A stretch of DNA of 50,204 nucleotides, taken from Candidatus Cloacimonadaceae bacterium. Its GTDB lineage: Bacteria; Cloacimonadota; Cloacimonadia; Cloacimonadales; Cloacimonadaceae. The notes beneath the pieces are model-generated. The model was not told the DNA's origin and ran no database searches. It saw nothing but the letters and a program-made list of their open reading frames with translations. Where the stretch lies: assembly GCA_030693415.1 (NCBI GenBank), contig JAUYAR010000052.1, positions 1 to 50,204 on the forward strand, in the 5' to 3' direction. This document shows, in pieces, positions 14,442 to 40,133 of the stretch (position 1 is the stretch's first letter; the number at the start of each line of letters is the position of its first letter). A program made the translations under genes and the position numbers.

Positions 14442-15542
14442 TCATAGCGTATCCCGTAGAGTTTTGCGATAAAGCGTTTTGACCTGATCGGCATCCACGA
14501 CAAAGGGGTTGCTTGCCATGTTGCGGCTTGCCATCACTTCGGTGGTGCAGCACTCGATCTCCTCTTCCGTCAATGGGATATAGGTATCGGGGAGAAGCTT
14601 TTCCAGCCAGGCAAAGAAATCGGCTTTGCTCATGCCAAGATGAGCGAACATTGCGTTCAGTTCCGTCTCGACCGCGGGAAAATAGAGCTCCATCATGTCT
14701 TTCATCACGATGCCGTTGGCAAGCCCGTGCGGAACGCCAAATAGCGAGGTCAGCGGATAACCGATGGAGTGCTGAAGCGTGGTTCCGGCATGGGCGATGG
14801 TCATTCCGCCATAGAGCGATGCGCGCATCAGTTCCTCGCGCACTTTCAGGTTCCCGGGTTCGTTTAAGGCGATGGGAAGGTTTAGGATGATTGATTTGAC
14901 GCCGCTTTGGATCAAGGGATAGAGTAAAGGATTGCGCTTTACCGAATAGATGCCTTCCAATAGGTGGCTTAGGGCGTCGATGCCGGTATTGAGAGTCACA
15001 TTTTGCGGCAAAGAGAGAGTGTATCTGGGAACGCAGATCGCCAGACTGGGGAAAACCAGTTCGCTGCCGAAACCAGCTTTCTTTTGTTTGGCGTTATCGG
15101 TCAAAACTGAATACTGGGTTGTTTCGGTGCCCGTTCCGGAGGTGGTGGGAATGGCGATGATCGGATAGGCTTTTTTGAAACGACTCACGTCATAGACATC
15201 ATCAATGCCCAGATCGTTTGCCGCTGCCAAAGAGATCGCTTTGGCAGCGTCGATTGGGCTGCCTCCTCCGATGCCGATGAGAAAATCGCAGTCCTCCTGC
15301 AGGAATCGCTTTTTGCCGGAGATAACTTGTTCAAGGACGGGATTTTCCGTGATCTCGTCAAAGTGAGACCATTTGGAGCCGAGATCGTCTAACAGAGCAC
15401 ATGTTTCGTCCAGAGCGCCGCATTGTTTTGCGCCGGCTTTTCCGGTGACGATCAAGGCTTTGCGTCCCAATGGCTGGATGTGATCTCTGCTCTGTTCCAG
15501 AGCATCGGCTCCGAAAAATATCCTTGTGGGAAGGTAAAACAT
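14442..15542 (-). CDS. Iron-containing alcohol dehydrogenase
   Basis: The 366-residue enzyme belongs to the iron-dependent group III alcohol dehydrogenases. The NAD(P) site is GIGGGSPIDAAKAI near residues 90-103, with IPTTSGTGTET near 132. The metal ligands are the Asp and His of GIDALSHLLEGI and the two His of QHSIGYPLTSLFGVPHG. Family members reduce semialdehydes or oxidise short alcohols and hydroxy acids such as 4-hydroxybutyrate. The substrate here is unknown. It is the last gene of the ten-gene minus-strand operon, four bp behind the amidase gene, so it probably handles a product of that pathway. A short repeat array lies just downstream. Confidence 0.85.
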   Translation of the reverse strand: MFYLPTRIFFGADALEQSRDHIQPLGRKALIVTGKAGAKQCGALDETCALLDDLGSKWSHFDEITENPVLEQVISGKKRFLQEDCDFLIGIGGGSPIDAAKAISLAAANDLGIDDVYDVSRFKKAYPIIAIPTTSGTGTETTQYSVLTDNAKQKKAGFGSELVFPSLAICVPRYTLSLPQNVTLNTGIDALSHLLEGIYSVKRNPLLYPLIQSGVKSIILNLPIALNEPGNLKVREELMRASLYGGMTIAHAGTTLQHSIGYPLTSLFGVPHGLANGIVMKDMMELYFPAVETELNAMFAHLGMSKADFFAWLEKLLPDTYIPLTEEEIECCTTEVMASRNMASNPFVVDADQVKTLYRKTLRDTL

Positions 15543-15546
15543 GTTT

Positions 15547-16788
15547 TTATCCTGTAAATAGTTTATTTGTAATGTGTTTGGCAGCGTTGAGCAGATAGTG
15601 ATCCTTCAAGAATTCTGCGGAAATCTGGATACCAAATGGAAGCCCGTGAGCGCTTTTTCCATGGGGTATAGTGATTGACGGCAAACCGCAAAAAGTGAAG
15701 GGCAGACTCATCAAGGGACTGCCGGTGGATTCGAGTCCGCGGGGCGCGGCGGAGGTCGTTGAGGGGCTGATCCACAGTTTGATGCCGGTGTCGCGCATCG
15801 TTTCACTCACCTGTTGTCTGATGCGCTTTTGCTCTGTTCTCGCTTGATCGGCTCTATAATCCGGAATCGCCTTTCCTTTGTGGAACAGGTCTTTTGACGG
15901 TTGAGAATACAATGATCCATAGCTTGAGTAAAGCTGCTCGTGATTGAGGTAAAACTCTCTTGCGATCAGATCCTGATGCAACTTGTTGATGCTTTCAATG
16001 TCTTCAAACACCGTGGTTTCGATTTCTCTGCATCCGCTTGAGACAAGCTTATTCCTTGATTCTTGGAATGCGGCGCGGGCTTCCTCGTTCGCTTGCCCCA
16101 GAAAGTATTCGGAAGGAATACCGAGGGTCGGTTCATCGGTTTCCTCATCTTTCCAACCCGGCAACAGGGCTTTCATGATCCGGATCATGGCATCGATGCT
16201 TAAGGAAAAAAAGCCGGGATGATCGGCGGACTGGGAGAAAGGGAGGACTCCGTCCAACGGGAAGATGCCATAGCTTGGTTTGAACCCCACGATCCCGCAA
16301 TATGCCGCAGGACGGATCACGGAAGCGATAGTTTGGGTACCGATGGAAAAATCGCAAAAACCTGCCGCCACCGCAGCAGCCGAACCGCTGGATGAACCAC
16401 CGGGGCTATGGTTGGGATCAATGGGGTTGCGCGTCTCTCCGGGTTGAAAATAGGCAAACTCCGTGCTGACCGTCTTTCCCACGATGAGTACTCCGAGAGC
16501 TTTGAGCATGGTGACCAAGGATGATTCTTCGCCAATAAATGCCTCTTCCGGAAGCTGTGAACCGGCACGGGTGGGCATGCCTTCCACGTTGTAGATATCC
16601 TTGATGCCGGCTAACAATCCATAGAGCAGTGGTTTCTGAGCGGGATAGCGGTCGATCAGTTGTTGTGCTTGTTTTTTCAAGCGTTCGCGGCGCCCCGTTT
16701 CAGGCAGGAAAGCATTGATGAGAGAATCGCGCTGCTCCAAGAGCCTGCAGATTTCTTCAACGCGCTGCAGCAGGATATCAGGAGGCAT
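15547..16788 (-). CDS. Amidase-signature family hydrolase
   Basis: The 413-residue protein carries the amidase-signature triad: Lys in LLAGIKDIYN (near residue 62), the cis-Ser in SPGGSSSGSAAAVAAG (near 131) and the nucleophile Ser in TQTIASVIRPAA (near 154). The usual GTDTGGS loop is altered to GTQTIAS but keeps the Ser. Such enzymes release ammonia from amides; relatives include allophanate hydrolase, mandelamide hydrolase and GatA. The lack of gatB/gatC nearby and the short length argue against GatA. It abuts the CoA-transferase gene with no gap, suggesting that it deamidates an intermediate of the same pathway before CoA activation. Confidence 0.85.
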   Translation of the reverse strand: MPPDILLQRVEEICRLLEQRDSLINAFLPETGRRERLKKQAQQLIDRYPAQKPLLYGLLAGIKDIYNVEGMPTRAGSQLPEEAFIGEESSLVTMLKALGVLIVGKTVSTEFAYFQPGETRNPIDPNHSPGGSSSGSAAAVAAGFCDFSIGTQTIASVIRPAAYCGIVGFKPSYGIFPLDGVLPFSQSADHPGFFSLSIDAMIRIMKALLPGWKDEETDEPTLGIPSEYFLGQANEEARAAFQESRNKLVSSGCREIETTVFEDIESINKLHQDLIAREFYLNHEQLYSSYGSLYSQPSKDLFHKGKAIPDYRADQARTEQKRIRQQVSETMRDTGIKLWISPSTTSAAPRGLESTGSPLMSLPFTFCGLPSITIPHGKSAHGLPFGIQISAEFLKDHYLLNAAKHITNKLFTG

Positions 16789-17979
16789 TCAGATCACGCC
16801 CTCGCTGCGTAGATGATTGATTTCGTCAACGCTCATAAGAAGCAACTCACTGAGCACTTGATGGTTATGTTCGCCGATCTCGGGTATCTTCTCTCGTGTG
16901 GGGGATTCCGGGATGCTGTCCATCTTGATCGGATTACCGGCGATTTTGATCTTTCCGGCGATGCCGTCCTCCACCTCGACGAGCATGTTGCGGGCTCTGA
17001 TTTGATCGTCCTGCATGATCTGATCAATCTTGTTGATCGGAGCAGAGGGTATCTGATGCGTTTCAAACAGGCAGAGCCACTCGCCGGCGGGTTTGCTTTC
17101 AAACATCGGTTCCAGGATTTGGTTCAGCGTCTCCAGATTCTCAGCGCGGGCTTTGTTTGTAGCAAAAAGCTCGTGCGTGATCAGCTCTTCATGTTCGATT
17201 GCCTGGCAGAAAGCCTTCCACAGGCTGTCGTTGCCGATGGCGATCACGAAATATTCGTCCCTTGCCTGATATGCCTGGAAGGGAGCAATGGTGGGATGCC
17301 GGTTGCCGATCGGTTGCGGGTTCTTTCCCTCAGCCTGAAAGCGAACCAATGCGTTTTCGAGGATCGCAATCTGGCAATCGAGCATGGCGATGTCGATTTT
17401 TTGTCCCAAACCGGTCTTCTCTCTCTGGAAAAGAGCCGCGTTGATGCCGATGGCGGTGAAAAGAGATGCCGTGATATCCCCAAGGGACATGCCCACCCGC
17501 GTGGGCGCCATGCCCTGCCACCCGGTGATGCTCATGATCCCGCCCATGGCTTGGGCGAGGATATCGTATGCCGGTTTTTCAGAATAGGGACCGCTATGGC
17601 CGAATCCCGAGGACGCGGCATAGATCAGACGCGGATTGATGGTTTTGAGAGTTTCGTATCCGAGTCCGAGGCGTTCCATCGTTCCGGGGCGGAAGTTTTC
17701 CACTAACACGTCGCAGTGTTTTGCCAATTCCTTTAGAATCTCTTTACCTTTTGGCGTTTTTAGGTTGAGTGAAACGCTCTTCTTGCCGCGGTTGATGCTG
17801 ATGAAATAGAGGCTTCTCCCATTTATAAATGGTCCATAGCCACGTGAATCGTCACCCCCTGCGGGATTTTCCACCTTGATGATCTCAGCTCCGAGATCGC
17901 TCAGGATCAATGTGCAGTAAGGTCCTGCCAGCACTCTGGTCAGATCGAGGACGCGGATTCCGGATAGGGGTTTATCCAT
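16789..17979 (-). CDS. Class III CoA-transferase (CaiB/BaiF family)
   Basis: The ATG at 17979 (MDKPLSGIRVLDLTRVLAG) is the usual family start; a longer frame from 18066 would run through the end of the upstream gene. The 396-residue protein carries the catalytic Asp139 in KPAYDILAQAMGG, which forms the acyl anhydride, and VENFRPGTMERLGLGY typical of the family. These enzymes move CoA between carboxylic acids, for example formyl/oxalyl or carnitine derivatives. The acceptor here is unknown. Its start overlaps the Mo-subunit stop by eight bases and its stop abuts the amidase gene, placing it firmly in the ten-gene operon. Confidence 0.88.
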   Translation of the reverse strand: MDKPLSGIRVLDLTRVLAGPYCTLILSDLGAEIIKVENPAGGDDSRGYGPFINGRSLYFISINRGKKSVSLNLKTPKGKEILKELAKHCDVLVENFRPGTMERLGLGYETLKTINPRLIYAASSGFGHSGPYSEKPAYDILAQAMGGIMSITGWQGMAPTRVGMSLGDITASLFTAIGINAALFQREKTGLGQKIDIAMLDCQIAILENALVRFQAEGKNPQPIGNRHPTIAPFQAYQARDEYFVIAIGNDSLWKAFCQAIEHEELITHELFATNKARAENLETLNQILEPMFESKPAGEWLCLFETHQIPSAPINKIDQIMQDDQIRARNMLVEVEDGIAGKIKIAGNPIKMDSIPESPTREKIPEIGEHNHQVLSELLLMSVDEINHLRSEGVI

Positions 17980-20323
17980 CTGTTTTTCCGCCTTTGTCGA
18001 GGATCGCCAGGGCAACCTTTTCGGCAGTGATCGGCATCTGTCTGATCCTGATGCCGAGCGCGTCAAAGACAGCGTTGGCGATCATCGGAGCCGCCGGCAG
18101 CATGGTATGTTCGCCGATTCCGCGGGCGCCGAAAGGTCCGTCCGGTTGAGGCACTTCCACGATGATGGGTATGATCTCGTCCGGCACGTCCATCGAAGTG
18201 GGAATCTTGTAATCGGTGAAATTGGGATTGAGCAGCCTGCCGTGCTTGTCATAGCGCATGTCTTCATAGAGCACGGTCGCCAAGCCCTGCAGTAAGCCGC
18301 CGGTGATCTGTCCTTTGATTAGATCGGGGTTAATCGCCTTTCCGGCATCGATTGCCTCCGCTACCTTGAGGACTTTCATCTTGCCGGTCTCTTTGTCGAT
18401 TTCGAGGATGAGTGCTCCGGCGCCGACGGTGTAATGCACGTTTGGATGCCCCCCCTGACTGGTTTCCGGATCTCCCGCGGCGGATGAATATTCCGGCATG
18501 AACATCCCGCGTCCGTTGATCGGCCCGCCTTTGTAAGTGCCGTCTTTAGTTGCTATTCCTTCCACTATGAAGGAGCGCAAAGGTAGGTTGAAGCTCTTGT
18601 CGGTATTGCATTTGACCGCTTCGTCCTCAAGAAAAAGCTCATCGATGGGCAGGTTGAAAACGCGGTGTACGAGGGCAAAAATCTGCTCGCGCGCATCGAT
18701 GGCGGCTTTCTTGACCGCGTTGCCGCTGCTCCACGTGATGTGCGATGCAACCGTCTGCCATTCATAGGGGTTGCGATCCGTGTCGGGAGTCTCCACCCTG
18801 ATCTTGTCAGGCGGCACGCTCAAAATCTCAGCGGCGATCTGTGCCATCACTGTTTGGTAGCCCTGACCGATATCCATGCCCGAGATGATGAGATTGATGC
18901 TGGCATCCTCGTTGAACTTCAAAAACGCGGAGGAAGAAGCGTTGGGCGGCATCGCCGGAGCTTTCCAGAAAAGGGAAAAGCCCTTTCCCAAAGCCTTGGT
19001 CGGGTCTTTGGAAACCAGCTTTTTATCCCAATCGATCGCCTTTTTGACCTTGTCGATCGCTTCCAAAAGACCGTTGGGATTCATCTTTACGCCATAGGCT
19101 GTCGTATCTCCTTCGAGGATGGCGTTGTGGCGGCGGAAAGCGATCTCGTCCATGCCGATCTTGTTGGCGACTGTCGTGATCAGGGATTCCAGACCGAAGA
19201 GCATCTCCGAATAGCCAAAACCGCGATATGCTCCTCCCGGAGGCAGATTTGTGTAAACGCATACGGAATCTATCGATACATTCGGGATGCGGTAAGGTCC
19301 GATGGCGGAAAGACCAACGGCGTTCACTACGTTCGCGCCGTATTCCACATAAGCTCCCGCGTCCCAATAAATCTTGTGATCGAGGGCGGTGATGGTGCCA
19401 TCATTTTTGACCCCGATCTTGAGCTTTGCCACGACTCCGAGACGCTGATATGTATTCACAAATTCTTGTTCCCGTGTCCAACGCAGTTTCACGGCATAGC
19501 CTTTGAGCTTGGTTGCCAGCGCCGCGGGAATGATTTCCATGGTGACTCCCGCCTTGCCGCCAAAACCTCCTCCCACGTGCGGAGCGATCACTCTCACGTC
19601 CTTGTGGGTGAGTCCTAAGGGTGCCAACGCTTCGGCAAAAAGATGTCTCTGCGTGTGCGGGGATTGGGATGAACTCCAAACCGTCAGTCTGCCGGAGAGG
19701 TCATATTTGCCGATCGCCACGTGGGTCTCGATGGCGCAGTGGGCATAGCGCGGAACCTCATAAGTCTCCTCAAGTATCACGTCCGCATCCGCGAACCCCT
19801 TTTCCAGATCGCCTTTGCGGGTCTTGCGCCAGTGGGCGATATTGGTTTTTTCTTTGGGGAAAAACCACGGAACGTGAGGATAATCCGCCAAGTCCGGATG
19901 CAATAGAACAGCGCCGTCCTTGAGAGCGTCCATTTGATCCAGCACGACGGGTAGGGCTTCATATTCGATCTCTATCAATAGTGCCGCTCTTTTGGCGATC
20001 TGCGGAGTGCGGGCAACCACTGCGGCAACTTGTTCTCCGACGAAGCGAACCCGATCCTGGGCAAAGACATAGCGGTCTTTCATATAAAGCCCGAACTTGA
20101 AAGGAAAGTCCTTGCCGGTGAAGACCTTGACCACGCCTTCGAGTTTTTCCGCCCGGGATGTGTCTATGGATTTGATGAGCGCGTGTGCCTTGGTGCTGGA
20201 TATTATCTCCGCGTAGAGTAGGTTGGCGCCAAAATCGATGTCATCGCCAAAGATGGCGGCTCCGGAGACCTTTTCCTTCCCGTCGATGCGGGGAACCGAT
20301 TTGCCGATGTATTTGTAGTCCAT
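17972..20323 (-). CDS. Molybdenum hydroxylase large subunit, non-purine type
   Basis: This 783-residue subunit of the xanthine dehydrogenase family binds the molybdopterin cofactor and hydroxylates a carbon next to nitrogen or an aldehyde. It has PRIDGKEKVSGAAIFGDDI at the start, HVGGGFGGKAG near 250-258, NLPPGGAYRGFGYSEM near 355, GMDIGQGYQTVMAQIAAEIL near 490, and the catalytic Glu in GARGIGEHTMLPAAP near 738. The position held by the purine-binding Glu of xanthine dehydrogenase is Ala (GGKA), and the Arg expected 78 residues later is absent. The substrate is therefore probably not a purine. FeS and FAD subunits are encoded immediately upstream. Confidence 0.88.
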   Translation of the reverse strand: MDYKYIGKSVPRIDGKEKVSGAAIFGDDIDFGANLLYAEIISSTKAHALIKSIDTSRAEKLEGVVKVFTGKDFPFKFGLYMKDRYVFAQDRVRFVGEQVAAVVARTPQIAKRAALLIEIEYEALPVVLDQMDALKDGAVLLHPDLADYPHVPWFFPKEKTNIAHWRKTRKGDLEKGFADADVILEETYEVPRYAHCAIETHVAIGKYDLSGRLTVWSSSQSPHTQRHLFAEALAPLGLTHKDVRVIAPHVGGGFGGKAGVTMEIIPAALATKLKGYAVKLRWTREQEFVNTYQRLGVVAKLKIGVKNDGTITALDHKIYWDAGAYVEYGANVVNAVGLSAIGPYRIPNVSIDSVCVYTNLPPGGAYRGFGYSEMLFGLESLITTVANKIGMDEIAFRRHNAILEGDTTAYGVKMNPNGLLEAIDKVKKAIDWDKKLVSKDPTKALGKGFSLFWKAPAMPPNASSSAFLKFNEDASINLIISGMDIGQGYQTVMAQIAAEILSVPPDKIRVETPDTDRNPYEWQTVASHITWSSGNAVKKAAIDAREQIFALVHRVFNLPIDELFLEDEAVKCNTDKSFNLPLRSFIVEGIATKDGTYKGGPINGRGMFMPEYSSAAGDPETSQGGHPNVHYTVGAGALILEIDKETGKMKVLKVAEAIDAGKAINPDLIKGQITGGLLQGLATVLYEDMRYDKHGRLLNPNFTDYKIPTSMDVPDEIIPIIVEVPQPDGPFGARGIGEHTMLPAAPMIANAVFDALGIRIRQMPITAEKVALAILDKGGKTDG

Positions 20324-20791
20324 CTATTTCTCCTTCTTGGTAGCTGCGAGAATGGCATCGAAAATGGGAGTGTAACCCGTGCAGCGACAAAGATTTCCGG
20401 ATAAAGCTTCCTTGATTTCGTCCAGCGAAGGATGAGGATTTGCCTTGAGCAATTCGGTGGCGCTGATGATCACCCCCGGAGCGCAATATCCGCATTGGAA
20501 GGAACTGAATTCGATGAAGGCTTCCTGCAATTTGTTCATTCCATCCTGCGAGATACCTTCCAAAGTAGTGATCTCCACGCCGTCGCATTCGATTGCCAGG
20601 ATGAGGCAGGAGCGAACGCTCTTGCCACTAAGCAGCACGGCGCAGGAGCCGCAATCTCCGCGGTCGCACCCGCATTTGGGACTTTTCATGCCCAGTTTAT
20701 CCCGCAGAACTTCCAATAATGTCTCGTTCGTTTCCACGTCCAAGCGGCGTTTTTCTTTGTTCAAAGTGATTCTGATCTTTGCCATCATCAA
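20324..20791 (-). CDS. Molybdenum hydroxylase [2Fe-2S] subunit
   Basis: The 155-residue subunit has the two iron-sulfur sites of the family. The plant-ferredoxin-like site is CGCDRGDCGSC plus the Cys of SVRSC (about residues 40-62). The alpha-helical site is QCGYCAPG with CRCTGY (about 100-136). It passes electrons from the Mo centre to the FAD subunit. Its stop abuts the Mo subunit start without a gap, and its start overlaps the FAD gene by four bases. Three ATGs stand in a row at the start (20791, 20788, 20785), so the true first residue is uncertain by two codons. Confidence 0.92.
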   Translation of the reverse strand: MMMAKIRITLNKEKRRLDVETNETLLEVLRDKLGMKSPKCGCDRGDCGSCAVLLSGKSVRSCLILAIECDGVEITTLEGISQDGMNKLQEAFIEFSSFQCGYCAPGVIISATELLKANPHPSLDEIKEALSGNLCRCTGYTPIFDAILAATKKEK

Positions 20792-21681
20792 CCTCCCAAA
20801 ATCCCTGTATTATCGATTTCGACGCCATTGAGACGATCGACAGCCGCGGGTAATCCTCTCTGCATCATCACTTTGCAGATGTGGGTGCGGTATCGCGCGC
20901 TGGAGCGGATATCATTGATCGGAGCGATCTCGGTCGGAATCAGATTCTGCACCTGGAGAATCAGTTCCGGATTGAGTTTCTTGCCAAAGAGCAAGCCCTC
21001 GATGGAACTCGCCCTTGCCGGAATCGGTGCCACGGCGCAAAAAGCCAAACGATATTCCCATTTTTCCGTCACGAGGATACCCAAACCCGCCTGGGCAAGG
21101 TCTTCACCCTTGTAGCGTCCGAGCTTGAGATAGATCCCGGCATGTTTGTCCGCAGGTTTTTTCAAAGATATCCCAGCCACGATCTCATCCGGTTTCCGCA
21201 AAGTCTTTCGGGGAGCGACAAACCACTGCTGGATCGGAACTTCGCGTTCGCTGCCGAGAGAGATCAGATGCACCACCGCATCATAGCAAAGCAGTGCGGG
21301 AGCGGCATCCATCGATGGAATCGCGCTGCAGATGTTTCCCACGACCGTGGCGCGGTTGCGGATCCCCACGGAAGCTACGCTGTGCGCGGATTCCCAAAGC
21401 AGACGATATTCGCGCTTGATGATCTGTGAATTCACCAGATCGCTGAATGTCGTATTCGCTCCGAGAAAAAGCCCCTCCGCCTTGATTTCCAGAGCCTTCA
21501 GATCCTTGACACGTTTGAGGTCGATCACCGCCGCGGGCGTGATCATACCTTCTTTGATAAAGACGATCAGATCGGTTCCACCGGCAAGCGGAGCCGCTTT
21601 TTTGCCAAACTGTGAAAGAATCTGAGTGGCTTCAAACAAGCTTGCCGGAGCGAAATATTCATATTCGTGCGCGATTGCCAT
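20788..21681 (-). CDS. Molybdenum hydroxylase FAD-binding subunit
   Basis: The 297-residue flavoprotein subunit of the three-subunit Mo-hydroxylase opens with YFAPASLFEATQILSQFG. It has the FAD-binding PLAGGTDLIVFIKEG near residues 35-50 and RNRATVVGNICSAIPSMDAAPALL near 108-130. It passes electrons from the [2Fe-2S] subunit to NAD+ or ferredoxin; the acceptor cannot be read from the sequence. It lies one base behind the cyclase gene and overlaps the FeS gene (ATGA). The order FAD-FeS-Mo is common for bacterial three-subunit hydroxylases such as CoxMSL-like and nicotinate-type enzymes. Confidence 0.9.
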   Translation of the reverse strand: MAIAHEYEYFAPASLFEATQILSQFGKKAAPLAGGTDLIVFIKEGMITPAAVIDLKRVKDLKALEIKAEGLFLGANTTFSDLVNSQIIKREYRLLWESAHSVASVGIRNRATVVGNICSAIPSMDAAPALLCYDAVVHLISLGSEREVPIQQWFVAPRKTLRKPDEIVAGISLKKPADKHAGIYLKLGRYKGEDLAQAGLGILVTEKWEYRLAFCAVAPIPARASSIEGLLFGKKLNPELILQVQNLIPTEIAPINDIRSSARYRTHICKVMMQRGLPAAVDRLNGVEIDNTGILGG

Positions 21682-21682
21682 T

Positions 21683-22495
21683 TCAGGGCTCCAAAGCGAT
21701 GACGCGGCACATGGAGGATTCCAGTTCGATCCCTCTCAGGGGAAAGAGCCCGATCCAGAGCCTTTTGTTGCTGACCTTATCTATCTCTCCGCCAAGGTTT
21801 TCGGCATGCACGAGTTTCTTTGGAAAGAGTTTCAGATGCATCACCTGATAATATTCTTCGGGGTCAAAAAGCTCGTCCCAGGCTTTGCCATGTTTCTCGA
21901 TCAGTTTCTTTTCCGCGTCGATGAAGGATTTGGGATGCCAGGTGCGGATGATCGTATTCATCGGATGATCCGCCGAACCGCAATCGACTCCGATCCATTT
22001 CAGTTTCATCTCCAAAGCCCATTTATGGAAGGAAGGATCGGGTCCCGGGTGTTTCACGAAATAGCGCAGCTCGTCGGATTCCGGTTGATCCCAGCTATAT
22101 TTGTGGTAGCCGGTATTGATGATGAGGATGTCCCCTTTGCGGATATCGGCTTTCTGCATCAGCAGTTCGGGGGAATAGAGATCATAATCTCCCACGGAAT
22201 CGGAGATATCGACGACCACTCCGTCGCCCACCCATTCGTGCATTGGCACCTCGCCGATGGTTCTGCCGCTGGCGTGGAAATGAATCTCGCCATCGATGTG
22301 GGTGCCCACGTGATTGCTGGTTTGGATGATCTGTCCGTTTGCGCCCTGACCCATGTGTGCGCCCGCGATACGTTTGAAATACTGGATCCCGAGCGGCATA
22401 TAGCTTGGCCATGGCGGCGTGTGGATGCTCAGCCTCTGGGTGAGGTCATACATCTTCACTTGGCTCATCAATGTCAAAAAGTCTTGCGTATTCAT
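21683..22495 (-). CDS. Cyclase-family metal-dependent hydrolase
   Basis: The 270-residue protein carries the signature HVGTHIDGEIHFHASG (near residues 62-77), matching HxGTHxDxPxHF of the kynurenine formamidase / isatin hydrolase family (PF04199). These His and Asp residues bind Mn or Zn. Members hydrolyse formamides or open small lactam and imide rings. There are no kynurenine genes here, so ring opening of the product of the adjacent Mo-hydroxylase is more likely. That is an inference from operon position. It overlaps the DUF1116 gene by four bases and lies one base from the FAD gene. Confidence 0.85.
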   Translation of the reverse strand: MNTQDFLTLMSQVKMYDLTQRLSIHTPPWPSYMPLGIQYFKRIAGAHMGQGANGQIIQTSNHVGTHIDGEIHFHASGRTIGEVPMHEWVGDGVVVDISDSVGDYDLYSPELLMQKADIRKGDILIINTGYHKYSWDQPESDELRYFVKHPGPDPSFHKWALEMKLKWIGVDCGSADHPMNTIIRTWHPKSFIDAEKKLIEKHGKAWDELFDPEEYYQVMHLKLFPKKLVHAENLGGEIDKVSNKRLWIGLFPLRGIELESSMCRVIALEP

Positions 22496-23892
22496 TCTTT
22501 TCCTCCTGATAGGGATTCGGCTAAGGTCAGATATGCCGAGACGAATGGTTCGATCGGTGCTTGAAGGACTCCCGCGCCGATCTGTCCGATGCCCGGCTCT
22601 TTATGTGCCACGCCGGTATCGAGAAATGGCGTGGTATTGAGTTCGACCACTTTTCTGATGTCGATTCCCAGCGGTGTTCCGCGAAAGTCCAATGCCGGAA
22701 TCTGATAGCTTCCGCTTTCGCCAAAGCAGATATCATACATCTTCAAGGTATAATCTAACGCATCTGAAGCGTTTCCGCCAACAAATTGCACGATTGCGGG
22801 AGCCGCGGCGATGGCAAATCCTCCAAGTCCTCCGGTCTCGGTGATGGTGCTGTCTCCGATATCCGGATTGGCGTCGGCAATCGTATATCCCGGAAAGAAC
22901 AGCGCCTCCGGCACCAAGGCTTTGCCAACGAACCAATCGTTTCTACCGGCGAGTTTGATGCCAAAATCCGTGCCGTTTCGTGCCATGGCGATGGCTATAC
23001 TGCTATTGGGGATGTCTTTAGCCGCGTCCAAAATCGCCTTGCAAGCCGGCATGGATAGATTGAGAAAAAAATGGTCGTTGCCGTTGATAAATTCCAGCGC
23101 GGCGGCAGAATCTTCTCTCTCGACGGAGCTGCGAAGCACCGCGGGAGCGAACTGACGGATCAGAAGCGAGGTGGCGGCACGGTTTCGGTTGTGAACTTCG
23201 TCCCCCATGTGCAAAGCTTGGGAAATGATAGAGCTCAAGTCGATCTTGCCCAATAGCTTGAGCGCGTTCTTCAATACCGGATAGAGCACTTTTTCCATCC
23301 ATTTCAGGCGCGCGATCACCTCTTCTGAAAAAGCTCCATAGCGCAGCACTTTCCCAAGTCCTTCGTTCAAGGTGCAATATGCCTGATTGCCAAAGCTTTC
23401 GTTGCGAACGATATAGACCGGCATCGAGGGGGAAATGATCCCCGCCATGGGACCTACGGACGAGTGGTCGTGACAGGGCGCAAACTCGATCTCTCCCGAT
23501 GCGGCAAGCTTTTCCGCTTTGGCATAATCCTCTGCCTTGCCTTCATAGATCAGCGCTCCGATCACAGCTCCGCGCATCGGACCGCACATTCGATCCCAAG
23601 TGATGGGCGGGCCTGCATGCAGGATCAGCTTTTCGTGCATTCCGGGAATCACGTTTCCCGCGATATCCAACCCGACCAGAGACGCTTTTCCTTTCTGAAT
23701 GATCTCCATTGTTTCCCGGTTGGCGGCATCGATCAACTCGCTGCGGGCTTCCAAGGACTCAAAAGCCCAAAAAGGCGTTTGGGCGGGAGGATGCCAATTT
23801 ATCTGCGACACCTGATATCCCTGGCGCTCCAGGTCGTCCTTGAAGCCCTCAATTCCGATGTTGATGATCGAAAGCGTTTTATCCAGTTTCAT
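22492..23892 (-). CDS. DUF1116 protein (YlbE/AllG-like carbamoyltransferase subunit)
   Basis: The ATG at 23892 follows GGGAGG; a longer in-frame start at 23937 would lie inside fdrA. The 466-residue protein matches the DUF1116 family (E. coli YlbE/YahG), with GPPITWDRMCGPMRGAVIGA, APCHDHSSVGPMAGIISPSM, MGDEVHNRNRAATSLL and GGLGGFAIAAAP as conserved blocks. In E. coli, YlbE works with FdrA and YlbF in the allantoin regulon and has been linked to oxamate carbamoyltransferase, which splits oxalurate with phosphate to oxamate and carbamoyl phosphate. All three partners are present here, and this gene overlaps fdrA by four bases. Confidence 0.85.
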   Translation of the reverse strand: MKLDKTLSIINIGIEGFKDDLERQGYQVSQINWHPPAQTPFWAFESLEARSELIDAANRETMEIIQKGKASLVGLDIAGNVIPGMHEKLILHAGPPITWDRMCGPMRGAVIGALIYEGKAEDYAKAEKLAASGEIEFAPCHDHSSVGPMAGIISPSMPVYIVRNESFGNQAYCTLNEGLGKVLRYGAFSEEVIARLKWMEKVLYPVLKNALKLLGKIDLSSIISQALHMGDEVHNRNRAATSLLIRQFAPAVLRSSVEREDSAAALEFINGNDHFFLNLSMPACKAILDAAKDIPNSSIAIAMARNGTDFGIKLAGRNDWFVGKALVPEALFFPGYTIADANPDIGDSTITETGGLGGFAIAAAPAIVQFVGGNASDALDYTLKMYDICFGESGSYQIPALDFRGTPLGIDIRKVVELNTTPFLDTGVAHKEPGIGQIGAGVLQAPIEPFVSAYLTLAESLSGGKE

Positions 23893-25427
23893 TGCTGCCT
23901 CCCGATCTCGAGGATCAGCTTTGCCGCCAGCGCGCAAGCTTCTGAATTTGAGGTCGTTACGATCGCTCCGGCATCGCGCAGACCATCAATGACAGCTTGC
24001 ATGTTTTGCGGATCATTCTCGGTGCCGATCACGCTGCAAATAGTGACAATGCAGGTGTCCTTTTTGATCTGTTTCAGCATGGGAATGAGCTCTTCATGCG
24101 GCTTTGGATGGGCGCCGAAACCCAAAACGACGTCCAGGAGGATGACGGCACATTCGATATCCGTCTTTTCCTCCGCCATCTTCTTGAGCCGCAGGGCATA
24201 ATCTATCATCGGATGCGGTCTGCCCACGGTAAACTCATCCGCGCCCAGGTCGATGATCGTATGCTCAAAGCTCTGCCACGCGCTGGTTAGCTGATGTTCA
24301 GATGCCAGCGGGGCGTTGCTGAACGCGTGCATGCCGGTGGCTTGATGAAAGATCAGTTGCGCTTCATAGCAGAGGGTTCCGCCGCTGAAAAGACCGCGCA
24401 GATACTTTCGGGTGGCTCTTTGAGGAAGCTGAACCAGCGAGCGGTTGTTAAATTGGTGGGCATCGAAAGCGGAATCATTTTCATGCTCCACCAGGCGGCA
24501 GGCTCTTTGTGCTGTATCGCTCAAGGTATTGGTATAATAGATATTGGGAATATCTTGCCCTGGCGGGGCGCCAAGGAAATTGACCACCCAAGGTTTGGGT
24601 GAAGTCTTCAGTTTTGCCATGATCTTTTCTATCACTTCCCCGTCCGGCAACTTGCAGATCAAGATTATCACCTCTGTGGCGGGATCATCGATGAGGAAAT
24701 CAAGGCACTGCAGGATCATCAATCCGCCGATCTCCTTTTTGCCGTCGCGTCCGCCAGTACCAAAAGCCTGGGAAATTCCTTCTCCGCGTCTGTGGATATC
24801 GCAGCAGACTGCTTGCAAACCGGTTCCGGCAGCGGAAACGATGCCTATCCTACCGCCACGCACCTTGTTGGCAAAGGCGAGCGGAACTCCGTTGATGATG
24901 GCGGTGCCGCAATCTGGCCCCATCATCAGCAATTGTTTCGAGACGGCGAGTTGTTTGAGTTTCAGCTCATCTTCAAGGCTCACGTTATCCGAAAACAGCA
25001 TCACGTGCAAACCGAGCCTCAAAGCTCTGAAAGCCTCGCGGGCAGCGTGTTTTCCCGCCACCGAGATCAATGCCATGTTCGCTTCCGGCATGGTTTTCAT
25101 GCTGCTTTCGATGCTGGAGGGGAGTAGCTTGGCTTGCCCGGCGCGCGCTTCCGGTTTGCGGGACAAAATCTCTTTGGCGTCGGCGATCGCAGCTTTGCAG
25201 AGTTCCATGCTATCCGCCAAAATTGCGATCAGGATGGAACTCTCCGGCGCTTTCGCAAACTCCGGCAGCAGCATGTTCGTCGCTGCCAGGATCGCCTTGT
25301 TTTCCGTGCTCGCGCTGATCGCCACAGCTTCCGTGACGCCTTCTTTTGCCTTGAGCTCTTTGGAAATCGTCATCAATTTCACCGAGTCCAGATATTTGCC
25401 CTCGACGATCGTTCCGATCAGCGGCAT
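23889..25427 (-). CDS. fdrA: FdrA-like acyl-CoA-synthetase-fold protein (AllF-like)
   Basis: The 512-residue protein resembles FdrA, whose fold comes from the alpha and beta chains of succinyl-CoA synthetase. Conserved blocks are VTEAVAISASTENKAILA near residue 35, MLFSDNVSLEDELKLK near 143, MGPDCGTAIINGVPLAFAN near 172 and GIVSAAGTGLQAVCCDIHRRG near 198, then GFGAHPKPHEELIP near 430. It would be the central subunit of a carbamoyltransferase that makes carbamoyl phosphate from a carbamoylated acid amide. The ATG at 25427 follows TGGAGG. It is the second gene of the ten-gene operon, ten bp behind the DUF2877 gene. Confidence 0.88.
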   Translation of the reverse strand: MPLIGTIVEGKYLDSVKLMTISKELKAKEGVTEAVAISASTENKAILAATNMLLPEFAKAPESSILIAILADSMELCKAAIADAKEILSRKPEARAGQAKLLPSSIESSMKTMPEANMALISVAGKHAAREAFRALRLGLHVMLFSDNVSLEDELKLKQLAVSKQLLMMGPDCGTAIINGVPLAFANKVRGGRIGIVSAAGTGLQAVCCDIHRRGEGISQAFGTGGRDGKKEIGGLMILQCLDFLIDDPATEVIILICKLPDGEVIEKIMAKLKTSPKPWVVNFLGAPPGQDIPNIYYTNTLSDTAQRACRLVEHENDSAFDAHQFNNRSLVQLPQRATRKYLRGLFSGGTLCYEAQLIFHQATGMHAFSNAPLASEHQLTSAWQSFEHTIIDLGADEFTVGRPHPMIDYALRLKKMAEEKTDIECAVILLDVVLGFGAHPKPHEELIPMLKQIKKDTCIVTICSVIGTENDPQNMQAVIDGLRDAGAIVTTSNSEACALAAKLILEIGRQQ

Positions 25428-25437
25428 AATACCTCCA

Positions 25438-26280
25438 TTAAGTGTTAATATACCATGCGCTTATGAATCCTGTCAAAGTATCCGCGCCGGAGCTGGCACC
25501 GTGCTTGATCACATCCATACCGGCAGTTTCCAACTCTCCCGATCCGCCGATGGCATAGATCAATCTGCGCCAATTTTCATCCGGTCTCATCTGCATTGAT
25601 TGATGCAGCAACGTATTGACCAATAGATTCTTAGCCAAGGATTCTTTGTATATCAAGCTACGGATTTTGCGCAAGTCTTTTTTTTCGGAGATTTCCCGAA
25701 CTCCCAAACCCAGCAGCAAACCGATCAGAAAATCGTCTCCAGAGGGGGTCAGTCCAATGCCGCAACCGCGAAATCCATTCACCGCGGACTGAATATCCCC
25801 ACTGCACAGATGCTCAAACGCGAAACACAAGTTCGTATTTACCACCACATTAAAAGGCGAGCCTCCGGGAGCGGATGCACAATCCCTCATGAGCCATGCG
25901 AGGCTTTCGGGAGCGGAGTTTTCATCCACAAGGTCTCTCAATATGGGGATATTTTCCCAAATTATCTTCGGTATCAGAAAACTCAAATCGACCCCGGATT
26001 CAAAACGACGAGCCGGATCGACGGGAATCTTTATCCGGTCATTGACAGTGATTTCATTCTCTGAGACCAGAACCCGCTCAATCGATGCTATCCCAATATC
26101 CTTCAGACAGATACGAAATGGTCCAGGACAAATGCTCCCATCCCCGACGCTGAGCACTCTCTCCTGAAAAGCGAAATTGACAACTCTGGCATGCCGAGAC
26201 CAGACGCTATGAAAATCTCCGGGCGGAACCATGTCTCCGAACGAGAGCAAATTATCAACGGACTGTGCTTGAAAACTCAT
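25438..26280 (-). CDS. DUF2877 protein (YlbF/AllH-like carbamoyltransferase subunit)
   Basis: The protein carries the DUF2877 signature GCGIGLTPSGDDFLIGLLLG (near residue 185) and the C-terminal block GASSGADTLTGFISAW. E. coli YlbF (AllH), the partner of FdrA and YlbE, has the same features. The start is uncertain: the frame is open to a TTG at 26343 (301 residues). The ATG at 26280 gives 280 residues, closer to the length of YlbF, but neither has a clear ribosome site. It is the first gene of the ten-gene minus-strand operon and is divergent from mtnA. The shared promoter region is only about 70-130 bp long and no operator was recognised. Confidence 0.78.
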   Translation of the reverse strand: MSFQAQSVDNLLSFGDMVPPGDFHSVWSRHARVVNFAFQERVLSVGDGSICPGPFRICLKDIGIASIERVLVSENEITVNDRIKIPVDPARRFESGVDLSFLIPKIIWENIPILRDLVDENSAPESLAWLMRDCASAPGGSPFNVVVNTNLCFAFEHLCSGDIQSAVNGFRGCGIGLTPSGDDFLIGLLLGLGVREISEKKDLRKIRSLIYKESLAKNLLVNTLLHQSMQMRPDENWRRLIYAIGGSGELETAGMDVIKHGASSGADTLTGFISAWYINT

Positions 26281-26412
26281 TTGCACAAGCGAATCCAGCC
26301 CTCGATCTTTGTCAAGCAAAGCCTTGTCCGCTATCGAAAGCAAGAAAGCTATTGACGAAAACAGCCCCGCCGCAACATGGTTCTCAGACCCGATAACTTC
26401 AATGGAGACATA

Positions 26413-29733: not shown

Positions 29734-31233
29734 ATGAATGAAAGCAAGATGGATATCGAGGTTTTGAACGCCAATCCGAGGCGCTGCCAATTTAACCGCA
29801 TCGAGTTTTGGCTGAATGGAAAACGGGTGCGGGAAGAGATTCCGCCAGCGATGACCACCCTGGAGTTTTTGCACCGGCAGCGGCATCTTTATGGTACCAA
29901 ATGCAGTTGCAACGAAGGTGATTGCGGTGCCTGCACAGTCGTTTTGGCATATCCACGCGAAGGCGGGATCGTCTATGAATCGGTGAATTCATGTCTGTTC
30001 AACGCCGCCAAGCTGCATGGCAAGCATCTGATCACGGTTGAGGCATTGGGCACACCTGAGGCTTTGCATCCCATCCAAAGCGCGATGTTGGCATTTCACG
30101 GAATCCAGTGCGGCTATTGCACACCGGGGTTTGTGATGAGCATGTTCGCCCTTTTTGCCTCGGTGACAAACCCTTCCGCGGAAGGCATTCTCGCAAATCT
30201 GGAAGGAAATCTTTGCCGTTGCACCGGCTACGATTCGATCCTCAAGGCAGCACGTTTCATCGCCGACAATTATCGCTCCTCGGACATCGTTCCAGCTTGG
30301 TGCAGAGCTATCGAGGCGGAACTTCTCGCCTTTGATCTGCCGATGGAATACATTGAAAGAGAAACAGATAGGCTCTACCCCTGTCAGGCATACCATGTTC
30401 CGGCAAGCCTCAGAGAATTGTTTCTGGTCACATCTCAAAACGAGGTGCATACACTGATTAACGGCGGGACGGACATCATGGTGCAGATGAGTATCCAAAG
30501 GCGGCATTATCCCATTTTGATCGATCTTTCGCAGATCGAAGGCTTGGACATTATCTATCCACGGGAAGAAGGAATCTATATCGGTGCGAATGTAACTTAT
30601 TCGCAGATAATGCGTTCTGAAGTCATCAAGACCGGTCTGCCCATCCTGATTGAGATGACCAGAAAGATCGCCTCCGAACAGATCCGCAATTTTGGCACGC
30701 TGACGGGGAACATCGCCAACGCCTCTCCGGTCGGGGACATGCTGCCTCTTTTGTTGGTTCTCAATGCCGAATTGGTTCTGGAATCCAAAGACGCAATGCG
30801 CAAGCTTCCACTCGCGGAGTATTTCCTCGAATATCGCAAGACCGCTCTGGAGGAGGGAGAAATCATCGTTGGGGTTTTGATACCGTCTTTGCCGCCCAAC
30901 GTCTTCGTGCGTTGTCAAAAAGCAGCGAAACGCAAGGCAGTGGATATTTCGGCAGTCGCCTCCGCCATCTATATCAATACGGTCGATGGAATCGTCCAAG
31001 CTGCGCGGCTTGCCTATGGCGGCGTGGCGGAAGTGCCGATTCTATCCAAACAGTTCCATAAAGCAATGATAAATATGGAGTTGCAAGGTCTGCACGTGGA
31101 CGCGATCGCGGATTTTGTGGCAAATGAATTCAATCCGATATCGGATGTGCGCGGTAGCGAAGAATATCGCAGGAAAGCGGTGCGCAACCAGCTTTTCGTC
31201 TATCTGAAAGAGTTTTTGGGGGTTGCACGATGA
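29734..31233 (+). CDS. xdhA: Xanthine dehydrogenase small subunit (FeS + FAD fused)
   Basis: The 499-residue protein fuses the [2Fe-2S] and FAD modules in one chain, as in XdhA of two-subunit bacterial xanthine dehydrogenases. The FeS part (about 20-170) has CSCNEGDCGAC, QCGYCTPGFVMSM and GNLCRCTGYDSI. The FAD part (about 205-495) has LINGGTDIMVQM and RNFGTLTGNIANASPVGDMLP. It would pass electrons from the Mo subunit to NAD+. The ATG at 29734 was chosen; an in-frame ATG at 29749 is also possible. Its stop overlaps the large-subunit ATG by four bases. Confidence 0.9.
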   Translation: MNESKMDIEVLNANPRRCQFNRIEFWLNGKRVREEIPPAMTTLEFLHRQRHLYGTKCSCNEGDCGACTVVLAYPREGGIVYESVNSCLFNAAKLHGKHLITVEALGTPEALHPIQSAMLAFHGIQCGYCTPGFVMSMFALFASVTNPSAEGILANLEGNLCRCTGYDSILKAARFIADNYRSSDIVPAWCRAIEAELLAFDLPMEYIERETDRLYPCQAYHVPASLRELFLVTSQNEVHTLINGGTDIMVQMSIQRRHYPILIDLSQIEGLDIIYPREEGIYIGANVTYSQIMRSEVIKTGLPILIEMTRKIASEQIRNFGTLTGNIANASPVGDMLPLLLVLNAELVLESKDAMRKLPLAEYFLEYRKTALEEGEIIVGVLIPSLPPNVFVRCQKAAKRKAVDISAVASAIYINTVDGIVQAARLAYGGVAEVPILSKQFHKAMINMELQGLHVDAIADFVANEFNPISDVRGSEEYRRKAVRNQLFVYLKEFLGVAR

Positions 31234-33509
31234 AGAAAGCTCCTTTTCACATCAGCGGAAAACTCCTGCTCACCGGAAACGCGAGATTTGTCGGCGACGA
31301 AGCTCCGCTGCCCGAAATGCTGCACGCGAAGTTTCTCTTTTCCCCCGTCGCCCATGCTTTGATCACCAAACTCGATGTCTCCAAAGCCGCAAATATCAAG
31401 GGCATCGCGCGAATCATCACTGCTGATGATGTTCCGGGTGAAAATCAGATCGGGCACGTGATCAAGGACGAGCCGCTCTTTCCCATAAGTAAGATCATGT
31501 TCTATGGACAGCCTTTGGCAATAGTGCTTTCAGAGGACGAGCGCTTGGCGGAGGCGGCGGCAAAAGAGATCGAGCTTGAGTATCAAGAATTGCCTCCACT
31601 GCTGGAAATCGATGATGCGGAAGCAGCATGCGAGTGGTATATTCCCGAACGCAAAATCGAATGCGGAGAGGTCGATAAAGCATTGATGGAAGCTGAATTC
31701 ACTATTTCAGGAGAGACCAAATCCGGCGCGCAGGAACATTTTTATATGGAGACCCAGCGTTGCCGCGCGGTTCCCGGAGAGGGGAATCAGCTAACTATTC
31801 ACACCGCCACGCAAAGCACTATGGAAGTGCAGGAAGTGCTTTCCCACGTGCTTGGCATCCCCGCGCACAATGTCATCGTCGAGGTTCTCCGCTTGGGTGG
31901 AGCCTTTGGCGGAAAAGAGCGCAATGCAACGATCTGGGCTTGTATGGCTGGCTTGGCGGCTTTTCTATGCAAGCGTCCGGTGCAGGTATTGTTGACAAGA
32001 GACGAGGATATGTCGGTCACCGGCAAACGCCATCCCTTCAAAAGCAGATGGAAGGCCGGATATGACTCAAGGGGAAGGATTTGTGCCTATGACCTCGAAC
32101 TGATGTGCAACGGCGGTGCCTATGCCGATCTCTCCATCGCCATCCTCGAACGCGCCATGTTCCATGCCGAAAACTGCTATCACATTCCCAATGCCCGCAT
32201 CCGAGGACGCGCCTGCCGGACAAATCTTCCGCCCAACACGGCTTTCAGGGGTTTCGGCGCGCCGCAGGGCATCTTTGTGATCGAATCCGTGATCGAAGAA
32301 ATCGCTGATTTGCTCAAACTGGATCCGATCGAGGTCAGAAAAGTAAATCTCTATCAAAACAAAGACTTCACTCCGTATGGTCAACAAGTCTTTGAAATCA
32401 GAAGTAATGAACTGTTTGACAAGCTCTTGGCTAATGCGGATTACACGAGGCTGAAGAGCAAAACAGAGCTTTTCAACAAACAAAACCAATACCTGAAACA
32501 AGGCATCGGCTTCGTGCCGGTCAAGTTTGGCATCTCGTTCACCACCGCGCTGCTCAATCAGGGCTCTGCTTTGATTTGGGTCTATATCGATGGCAGCGTG
32601 TCGGTTAGCACTGGCGGTATTGAAATGGGGCAGGAACTTTCCACCAAAGTCGCCATCGTCGTTTCGCGCGTGCTGGGCATTTCCATTTCCCTGATCAGGA
32701 TCGAAAGCGCCAATTCCCAGAGAGTGGGAAACGCTTCTCCCACAGCAGCATCCACAGGCAGCGACATCAATGCAAACGCTGCGCGCATTGCTGCTGAAAA
32801 GATCAAAACCAGCTTAACCCCGGCAGCGCGTAAGCTACTGCAGCAGAAGTATCAACAAGAATTTGAGCTGAAAGAAATCGTCTTTGATGATTCTCTCATC
32901 CACAGCGCGGAGGAGCCGGACAAATCCATCACCTTCGTGGAACTGATCCGCTTTGCTTACAACGAGCGTGTGCCTTTGGCGGCTTATGGATATTATGCCA
33001 CGCCGGGCTTGTACTTCGACCGCGAAAAAGGCAGGGGAAACCCTTTCCACTATTATGTTTCCGGTTGCGCGCTTTCGAGGGTTCAGATCGATCTGCTCAG
33101 CGGCGAACATCGCGTAAGGGATACCTATATCGTGCATGAAAACGGATCGGCTTTGAGCATGGAAATCGATCGTGGACAGATCATCGGCGCCTTTGTGCAA
33201 GGCTATGGATGGTGCACGATGGAAGAGCTTCTCTTCAATACCGACGGACGCTATCTGGCTGTGAATCCATCTACATACAAAATCCCCACGGTGCGCGATA
33301 TCCCCGAAAACCTGCAGGTGGAGATCTTGGCATCGCAGGATGAACACGCCAGCGTCATGGGCAGCAAAGCAACCGGAGAACCGCCATTCATCTATGGACT
33401 CTCGGTGTATTTTGCCATCCGGAACGCTTTGCGAAGTATCAATGCCGACGCGGTGCTTGGCTTTCCCGCAACTCCGGAAGCGGTTTTGAAGGCGCTTGAC
33501 CGACAGTGA
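31230..33509 (+). CDS. xdhB: Xanthine dehydrogenase large (Mo) subunit
   Basis: The 759-residue subunit holds the molybdopterin centre and oxidises hypoxanthine and xanthine. It has GGAFGGKERN with Glu near residue 230 and an Arg exactly 78 residues later in AILERAMFH (near 308). This reproduces the Glu232/Arg310 purine-binding pair and spacing of Rhodobacter XdhB. TNLPPNTAFRGFGAPQG follows near 330, and the catalytic Glu is in GSKATGEPPFIYG near 715. This supports true purine specificity, in contrast to the Mo subunit at 17972-20323. Its stop overlaps the GTG start of the phosphatase gene. Confidence 0.92.
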   Translation: MKKAPFHISGKLLLTGNARFVGDEAPLPEMLHAKFLFSPVAHALITKLDVSKAANIKGIARIITADDVPGENQIGHVIKDEPLFPISKIMFYGQPLAIVLSEDERLAEAAAKEIELEYQELPPLLEIDDAEAACEWYIPERKIECGEVDKALMEAEFTISGETKSGAQEHFYMETQRCRAVPGEGNQLTIHTATQSTMEVQEVLSHVLGIPAHNVIVEVLRLGGAFGGKERNATIWACMAGLAAFLCKRPVQVLLTRDEDMSVTGKRHPFKSRWKAGYDSRGRICAYDLELMCNGGAYADLSIAILERAMFHAENCYHIPNARIRGRACRTNLPPNTAFRGFGAPQGIFVIESVIEEIADLLKLDPIEVRKVNLYQNKDFTPYGQQVFEIRSNELFDKLLANADYTRLKSKTELFNKQNQYLKQGIGFVPVKFGISFTTALLNQGSALIWVYIDGSVSVSTGGIEMGQELSTKVAIVVSRVLGISISLIRIESANSQRVGNASPTAASTGSDINANAARIAAEKIKTSLTPAARKLLQQKYQQEFELKEIVFDDSLIHSAEEPDKSITFVELIRFAYNERVPLAAYGYYATPGLYFDREKGRGNPFHYYVSGCALSRVQIDLLSGEHRVRDTYIVHENGSALSMEIDRGQIIGAFVQGYGWCTMEELLFNTDGRYLAVNPSTYKIPTVRDIPENLQVEILASQDEHASVMGSKATGEPPFIYGLSVYFAIRNALRSINADAVLGFPATPEAVLKALDRQ

Positions 33510-39954: not shown

Positions 39955-40133
39955 GGGCAATCCTTTAACTTCTCTGATTTTGAATGCGCACCCCCCCGAC
40001 TACCAAAAATCTGTATCCTATTATATTGTCAATGCATTTTGTGGCCTGCATACCCCGATTTCTGCAGGTAAGCTCCGCCAAATGCAGGCAGAAAAACCAA
40101 CTCAACGTGCTTTTACATCGATCCGGCGCGGAA

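Follow-up and report, generated by a model that had tools for sequence, protein, structure and literature searches.

A conserved operon joining a molybdenum hydroxylase, a cyclase and an AllFGH-type carbamoyltransferase as a candidate oxidative route for pyrimidine bases

Introduction

Four strategies for the degradation of uracil are generally recognised, namely the oxidative, reductive, Rut and URC routes (PMC12507026). The oxidative route of Rhodococcus and Nocardia employs uracil/thymine dehydrogenase, barbiturase and ureidomalonase (PMC3758960, PMC4051656), whereas the AllFGH carbamoyltransferase has been proven biochemically in E. coli on oxalurate, which makes it the only proven relative of the enzyme considered here (PMC11326118). 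Here we describe a locus that unites homologues of AllF, AllG and AllH with a molybdenum (Mo) hydroxylase, a cyclase, a CoA-transferase and an amidase, encoded on a 50,204-nucleotide stretch of a Candidatus Cloacimonadaceae bacterium (assembly GCA_030693415.1, contig JAUYAR010000052.1, positions 1 to 50,204; hereafter the window). An earlier note on this DNA had read the locus as a ten-gene operon and had favoured ureidomalonate, formed from barbiturate, as the substrate of its carbamoyltransferase. Our analysis makes it likely that the operon provides an oxidative, energy-conserving route for pyrimidine bases that runs through barbiturate and ureidomalonate to malonyl-CoA. Gene identity, order, conservation, the linkage to permease and pyrimidine genes, and the sequence motifs are direct observations, and our literature search found no paper describing this gene set.

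Organization and conservation of the operon

The source genome (2.81 Mb in 185 contigs, 99.8% complete) holds a single copy of AllG. Ten open reading frames (ORFs) lie on the minus strand of the window between 14442 and 26343, and adjacent pairs either overlap, by the 4 bases ATGA or another short stretch, or are separated by no more than 10 bases. Their order, spacing and families, as the earlier note had given them, were all confirmed by the ORFs and by profile matches to Pfam and NCBIfam, on which our family assignments rest. The run opens with AllH (DUF2877, PF11392; 25438..26343; 72 bits, cut-off 25), the third subunit of an AllFGH-type carbamoyltransferase, followed by AllF (FdrA; 23889..25427), with CoA-binding and CoA-ligase domains and a match to PRK06091 (453 bits, cut-off 433), and AllG (DUF1116, PF06545; 22492..23892; 318 bits), so that homologues of all three subunits are adjacent (22492-26343). 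The AllG ORF opens at 23937, though the ATG at 23892, which forms an ATGA overlap with the AllF stop, is the likelier start. Next come a cyclase of the metal-dependent ring hydrolase family PF04199 (21683..22495), proposed here as a barbiturase, and the three subunits of a Mo hydroxylase of the xanthine dehydrogenase family: the FAD subunit (20788..21681), the 2Fe-2S subunit (20324..20791) and the molybdopterin-binding Mo subunit (17972..20323), a proposed uracil hydroxylase. A class III CoA-transferase (16789..17979), proposed to act on malonate, has an ORF that opens at 18066, with a likelier ATG at 17979 in an 8-base overlap with the Mo stop. An amidase-signature enzyme (15547..16788), a putative malonamate amidohydrolase, and an iron-containing alcohol dehydrogenase (14442..15542) end the run.

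Among 61 genomes (the source genome and 60 relatives), AllG was found in 14, that is, in the source genome and 13 relatives. In these 13 the order AllH-AllF-AllG-cyclase-FAD-FeS-Mo-CoA-transferase-amidase is kept as far as the contigs reach, some of which stop inside the operon. Identity among close relatives is 78-89% for the cyclase, about 78-86% for the Mo subunit, about 44-61% for AllF and about 25-34% for AllH, which is the least conserved gene (about 24-34% between phyla). In a distant scan that took one genome from each species, we recovered 272 cyclase relatives and analysed the loci of the best 80, whose cyclases retain 76-89% identity across phyla and represent the best conserved gene. 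These records carry labels that include Cloacimonadota, Bacteroidota, Ignavibacteria, Elusimicrobia, Verrucomicrobia, Kiritimatiellae, Lentisphaerae, Planctomycetota, Spirochaetota, Myxococcota, KSB1, Eisenbacteria and Zixibacteria, among others, and the seven-gene core from AllH to Mo spans records labelled as about 20 phyla; because nearly all 80 are metagenome-assembled genomes (MAGs), single labels may be binning errors. Gene content, scored by tblastn and lowered by contig ends, gave FAD in 71 loci, AllG in 67, FeS in 65, AllF in 63, Mo in 60 and AllH in 51, and, outside the core, the CoA-transferase in 27 and the amidase in 24. Of the 71 loci that hold four or more core genes, 66 keep the core order and the other five have the same genes rearranged. 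A homologue of the Mo subunit, counting non-adjacent ones, was present in 18 of 18 further-flung genomes checked, at no less than 40% identity in 17 of them. The system appears rare in Bacteroidia, since the cyclase was found in only 1 of 247 genomes searched.

The ten-gene run, with its nine-gene and core orders recurring in this way, is far beyond chance. Conservation of the gene set beyond close relatives, on which the earlier note had made its proposal depend, extends across many phyla, and within the AllG-positive relatives nine of the genes keep their order as far as the contigs allow. The tenth does not share in this: the alcohol dehydrogenase is absent from all 80 related loci and never occurs in the AllG-positive relatives. 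On these grounds we reject it as a member; it probably lies outside the conserved system.

Linkage to uracil permeases and pyrimidine genes

The nucleobase genes that travel with the set, which the earlier note had proposed to record, include UraA-type permeases and, in Spirochaetota, dihydropyrimidine dehydrogenase and dihydropyrimidinase. A UraA-type (NCS2) uracil-permease gene joins the operon in 11 genomes from two phyla. Eight of these belong to the 80 loci, where the permease lies on the same strand at 129-875 bases from the nearest operon gene; the other three are two Spirochaetota loci (L117, L118) and a locus in G040 (L149). The chance of a permease lying within 10 kb is about 0.7% per locus, if one gene per 2.7 Mb genome is assumed and phylogeny is ignored. 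With the uracil permease model the linked permease reaches 360 bits, compared with 222 bits for the xanthine permease model; its score is 261 bits for the solved UraA and 54 bits for solved urate-xanthine (UapA-type) permeases.

In two Spirochaetota, AllF-AllG-cyclase and a Mo hydroxylase stand inside or beside a reductive pyrimidine-catabolism cluster. In one of them (G322) a single strand encodes an AtzE-type amidase followed by AllF, AllG and the cyclase. Methylmalonate-semialdehyde dehydrogenase (545 bits, cut-off 448), a hydantoinase/carbamoylase amidase (296 bits, cut-off 204) and a PreT-like protein come next, then dihydropyrimidinase (503 bits, cut-off 393) and an aminotransferase; an NCS1 permease and a GntR regulator lead over to FAD-FeS-Mo. 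In the other (G333), the genes directly upstream of the set are those for dihydropyrimidinase (575 bits) and PreA (567 bits, cut-off 335), for a PreT-like protein and a carbamoyl amidase of the nitrilase family, and for an NCS2 permease; the set is ordered AllH-FAD-FeS-Mo-AllF-AllG-cyclase, and it continues with an aminotransferase and an acylating aldehyde dehydrogenase. The source genome itself (G000) has no dihydropyrimidinase over the 393-bit cut-off, its best match of 179 bits being PyrC; as other operon genomes do have the enzyme, the reductive and operon routes can coexist.

A verrucomicrobial genome (G825) carries, in addition to a canonical copy of the operon, a second locus (L143) that encodes on one strand a malonyl-CoA-synthase-like ligase (384 bits, below cut-off), MeaB (250 bits, cut-off 241), the large subunit of methylmalonyl-CoA mutase (777 bits), a truncated NCS2 gene, AllG and a double cyclase, the last an in-frame tandem fusion of two cyclase domains (L143:9427-11100, minus strand, 557 aa). 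A 132-aa protein of this locus reads as a B12-binding subunit. The set would fit the needs of thymine, whose breakdown by the same logic may lead through methylmalonate and methylmalonyl-CoA to succinyl-CoA.

Proposed pathway and enzyme-level evidence

The substrates and every catalytic step of the pathway are inferred from genomic context. The three-subunit Mo hydroxylase would oxidise uracil at C6 to barbiturate (or thymine to 5-methylbarbiturate), a step for which it is of a suitable class and to which the uracil permeases linked in 11 genomes lend indirect support, and the PF04199 cyclase, as a metal-dependent ring amidohydrolase, would open barbiturate to ureidomalonate. AllFGH would then split this acylurea by phosphorolysis into malonamate and carbamoyl phosphate, a type of reaction that E. 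coli AllFGH performs on oxalurate. The malonamidase-E2-like amidase would convert malonamate to malonate and ammonia, and the class III CoA-transferase would convert malonate to malonyl-CoA, while a carbamate kinase encoded outside the operon would turn carbamoyl phosphate into ATP. The source genome has one carbamate kinase (G000:C71, 359.5 bits, over cut-off). As a specific marker of the system we rejected this enzyme, which occurs in nearly all genomes with or without the operon and is uninformative. The substrate favoured by the earlier note gains support from the uracil permeases and pyrimidine genes, the malonamidase-E2-like amidase, the variant with methylmalonyl-CoA mutase and a malonyl-CoA-synthase-like ligase, and the absence of oxalyl-CoA decarboxylase and, in the source genome, of allantoinase, all of them features of sequence and genomic context.

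Among solved structures in the PDB, malonamidase E2 comes closest to the amidase (156 bits across 354 residues, E 9e-45), and the alignment has in common the lysine, the SSS loop and a Ser-Val-Ile-Arg segment. Features of the malonamidase E2 type, the Ser-cisSer-Lys triad loop and Ser-x-x-Arg, are present, and the motifs G[IV]KD, PGGSSSGS and SxxRPA recur in 37-38 of 39 copies (S-x-x-R-P-A in 37). The CoA-transferase is closest in the PDB to YfdE, an acetyl-CoA:oxalate CoA-transferase (344 bits), and then to succinate-HMG CoA-transferase, so that homology does not settle which acid it activates; its best NCBIfam model is CoA:oxalate CoA-transferase, at 386 bits and below the 522 cut-off. These matches speak for a different route, that of oxalurate from a five-membered ring, which the earlier note had named as its alternative. 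Here hydantoin or a similar compound would be oxidised to parabanate by the Mo hydroxylase and opened to oxalurate by the cyclase, AllFGH would yield oxamate and carbamoyl phosphate, and oxamate would be deamidated to oxalate, which would then be activated as oxalyl-CoA. The proven action of AllFGH on oxalurate in E. coli (PMC11326118) and an OxlT/lactate-type transporter gene of the MFS family in the window (36951-38120) are consistent with it. Oxalyl-CoA decarboxylase was over cut-off in none of 35 operon genomes, with an E. coli control positive, and for this reason the route is disfavoured; in addition the linked permeases are of the uracil type, the amidase resembles malonamidase, and oxalurate does not predict clusters with dihydropyrimidinase or methylmalonyl-CoA mutase. 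We consider this route improbable.

The Mo subunit carries the motif GGGFG[GS]KAG in 66 of 66 copies, with GGGFGGKAG in the window. We take its alanine to occupy the position of the purine-binding glutamate of xanthine dehydrogenase (bovine Glu802); a glutamate of that type after GGGFGGK was seen in none of the 66, all of which have alanine. This argues against the possibility that a purine, or an imidazole or pyrimidine fragment of one, is what the Mo hydroxylase and cyclase convert into a ureido compound for AllFGH. A purine origin would agree with the bona fide xanthine dehydrogenase pair nearby in the window (29734-33509), with haloarchaeal relatives of the cyclase that adjoin hydantoinase-like genes and permeases of the xanthine type (454 and 445 bits to pbuX), and with the service of E. 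coli AllFGH in allantoin catabolism. On the other hand, the source genome lacks an allantoinase, the best match (227 bits, cut-off 358) being PyrC in a pyrBCKD cluster; the linked transporters are mostly of the uracil type; one genome (G069) holds a separate urate-type cluster on another contig; and a purine source would give no reason to expect the amidase and CoA steps. We regard a purine-derived substrate as unlikely. The statement of the earlier note that allantoin genes are missing holds for the window, and genome-wide for allantoinase, the one such gene covered by our search.

The cyclase carries HVGTHIDGEIH in the window, and the HxGTHxD metal-binding motif is present in 114 of 118 copies. 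Its AlphaFold model has a mean pLDDT of 74 and is weak at residues 25-78, a stretch that includes the metal motif; by Foldseek the nearest folds are isatin hydrolase and kynurenine formamidase (E 1e-9 to 1e-11, TM up to 0.63). With these two enzymes in its fold family, ring specificity is not readable from the fold, and the best PDB sequence match is only 40 bits, with no structure of the closest subfamily and no characterised member found. Both points leave some room for another cyclic imide, lactam or xenobiotic ring, such as a substituted uracil, orotate or a succinimide-like compound, handled by the same logic of hydroxylation, opening and carbamoyl transfer. The extreme cross-phylum conservation of the cyclase and the Mo subunit suggests one common natural substrate, and the linked genes point to nucleobases; we hold such a ring to be very unlikely. 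The AtzD/TrzD-family barbiturase (PF09663) was matched in none of 35 genomes, the control genomes likewise being without a match, and this result is not used as evidence.

Loci that depart from the scheme

The conserved set has a limit at the CoA-transferase, in whose place many loci carry other genes. In 17 of the 80 loci (among them L045, L049, L050, L051, L055, L058, L062, L077 and L078) a module of a thiolase-like protein, an OB-fold (DUF35) protein and a protein of about 230-260 aa occurs without the CoA-transferase, and module and CoA-transferase are never found in one locus (hypergeometric P = 3e-4, phylogeny ignored). The thiolase-like protein has NGPASG, with proline instead of the catalytic cysteine, in 22 of 22 copies, the protein of about 230-260 aa has no Pfam or NCBIfam match, and three module loci also have an amidase match. 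Another variation is seen in some Cloacimonadota with a gene for a small HIT-like protein, read from the sequence, inserted between Mo and the CoA-transferase (L020:3751-4218, L026:15482-15919, L029:4199-4630).

More distant cyclases (44-48% identity) are encoded on haloarchaeal plasmids (L128, L129, L131, L132), where AllFGH is missing. In L128, L131 and L132 they lie near a distant Mo hydroxylase (25%), a CoA-transferase (38%) and XdhC; the loci carry NCS2-type permeases, of the xanthine type in L129 and L131, as well as a hydantoinase-like gene. The thiolase/OB-fold pair is also present in L131. With a Mo subunit only 25% identical and no AllFGH, we rejected these loci as the same operon, and likewise a Rhodococcus plasmid cyclase (36%), whose context is an unrelated dioxygenase/nitrilase.

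Several of our observations weigh against a pyrimidine route. The thiolase-like/OB-fold module is unexplained by the proposed scheme, and the best model match of the CoA-transferase points to oxalate. The genome of the window has no UraA-type permease, and only one relative with the operon has one; uracil in the source organism would need to come from RNA turnover or through another transporter. Genomes with linked permease or pyrimidine genes are often MAGs and related to one another, so independent events are fewer than the genome counts. Carbamate kinase is missing from the window operon and present in relatives without it, and in a small number of cyclase loci (L057, L059, L061, L070) most of the gene set is absent. 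Finally, the haloarchaeal cyclases stand beside xanthine-type permeases without AllFGH, so members of the wider cyclase family may have a part in purine metabolism as well.

Neighbouring genes and side clusters

The operon's divergent neighbour on the plus strand is mtnA, after which come genes for an MTA/SAH-deaminase-like amidohydrolase, for SmpB and for the two-subunit xanthine dehydrogenase, a genuine one (447 and 803 bits to the xdhA and xdhB models, just below cut-off) that lies 3.4 kb from the operon on the opposite strand. The oxalate/formate- or lactate-type transporter on the minus strand could carry a carboxylic acid out of or into the cell and is unlinked to the operon. Beside it, two adjoining minus-strand ORFs (38159-39960) have starts that resemble PurE and PurK. 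The urate-type purine cluster of G069 (L156, G069:C14:15001-33000), similar to the known reductive uric acid cluster, reads as a YgfK-like flavoenzyme, three YgeW-like transcarbamylases, a carbamate kinase, a pyridoxal phosphate lyase and Mo hydroxylases.

Significance and comparison with known systems

In its broader form, towards which we incline with more reserve, our reading is of an undescribed, ATP-yielding oxidative pyrimidine pathway in many mostly uncultured phyla, with a barbiturase of cyclase fold that is not related to the enzyme already known, a three-subunit ureidomalonate phosphorolase and a paralogous thymine branch to methylmalonyl-CoA and succinyl-CoA. If true, the oxidative strategy, thought to be rare, would have another form, spread far more widely and built on a non-homologous barbiturase, one phosphate bond would be saved per base, and the AllFGH carbamoyltransferase family would gain a second substrate. 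It would also give a function to hundreds of genes labelled 'cyclase family protein', DUF1116 or DUF2877, and explain how uncultured anaerobes in Cloacimonadota, Verrucomicrobiota, Spirochaetota and other groups could live on RNA bases.

Among described systems, the Rhodococcus/Nocardia route has in common with the pathway proposed here the intermediates barbiturate, ureidomalonate and malonate, and oxidation that precedes ring cleavage (PMC3758960, PMC4051656). The known barbiturase belongs to the rare AtzD/cyanuric acid hydrolase (Toblerone) family, whereas the operon would use a PF04199 cyclase; ureidomalonate is hydrolysed to urea there, in place of the phosphorolysis to carbamoyl phosphate proposed here, and the operon would make malonate by a separate amidase. 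E. coli AllFGH, the oxamic transcarbamylase of anaerobic allantoin catabolism, has three homologous adjacent subunits and is expected to share the same acylurea chemistry (PMC11326118). In contrast, the window operon is without carbamate kinase and allantoin genes, its partners are the Mo hydroxylase, cyclase, amidase and CoA-transferase, and its proposed substrate is one CH2 longer. Isatin hydrolase and kynurenine formamidase resemble the cyclase in fold and in the metal motif HxGTHxDGxxH, yet identity in structural alignment is below 20%, and the operon cyclase forms a separate, highly conserved subfamily. Malonamidase E2 shares with the operon amidase the lysine, the SSS loop and the Ser-x-x-Arg motif, though the match reaches only 156 bits; malonamate activity of the operon enzyme is putative. 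The reductive uric acid cluster (XdhD, YgfK, SsnA, HyuA, YgeW, YqeA, YgeY, YgeX) is likewise a system of anaerobic nucleobase breakdown with a xanthine dehydrogenase homologue and carbamoyl phosphate for ATP (PMC12507026), and differs in its ring hydrolases and in its transcarbamylase, which is YgeW there and AllFGH here.

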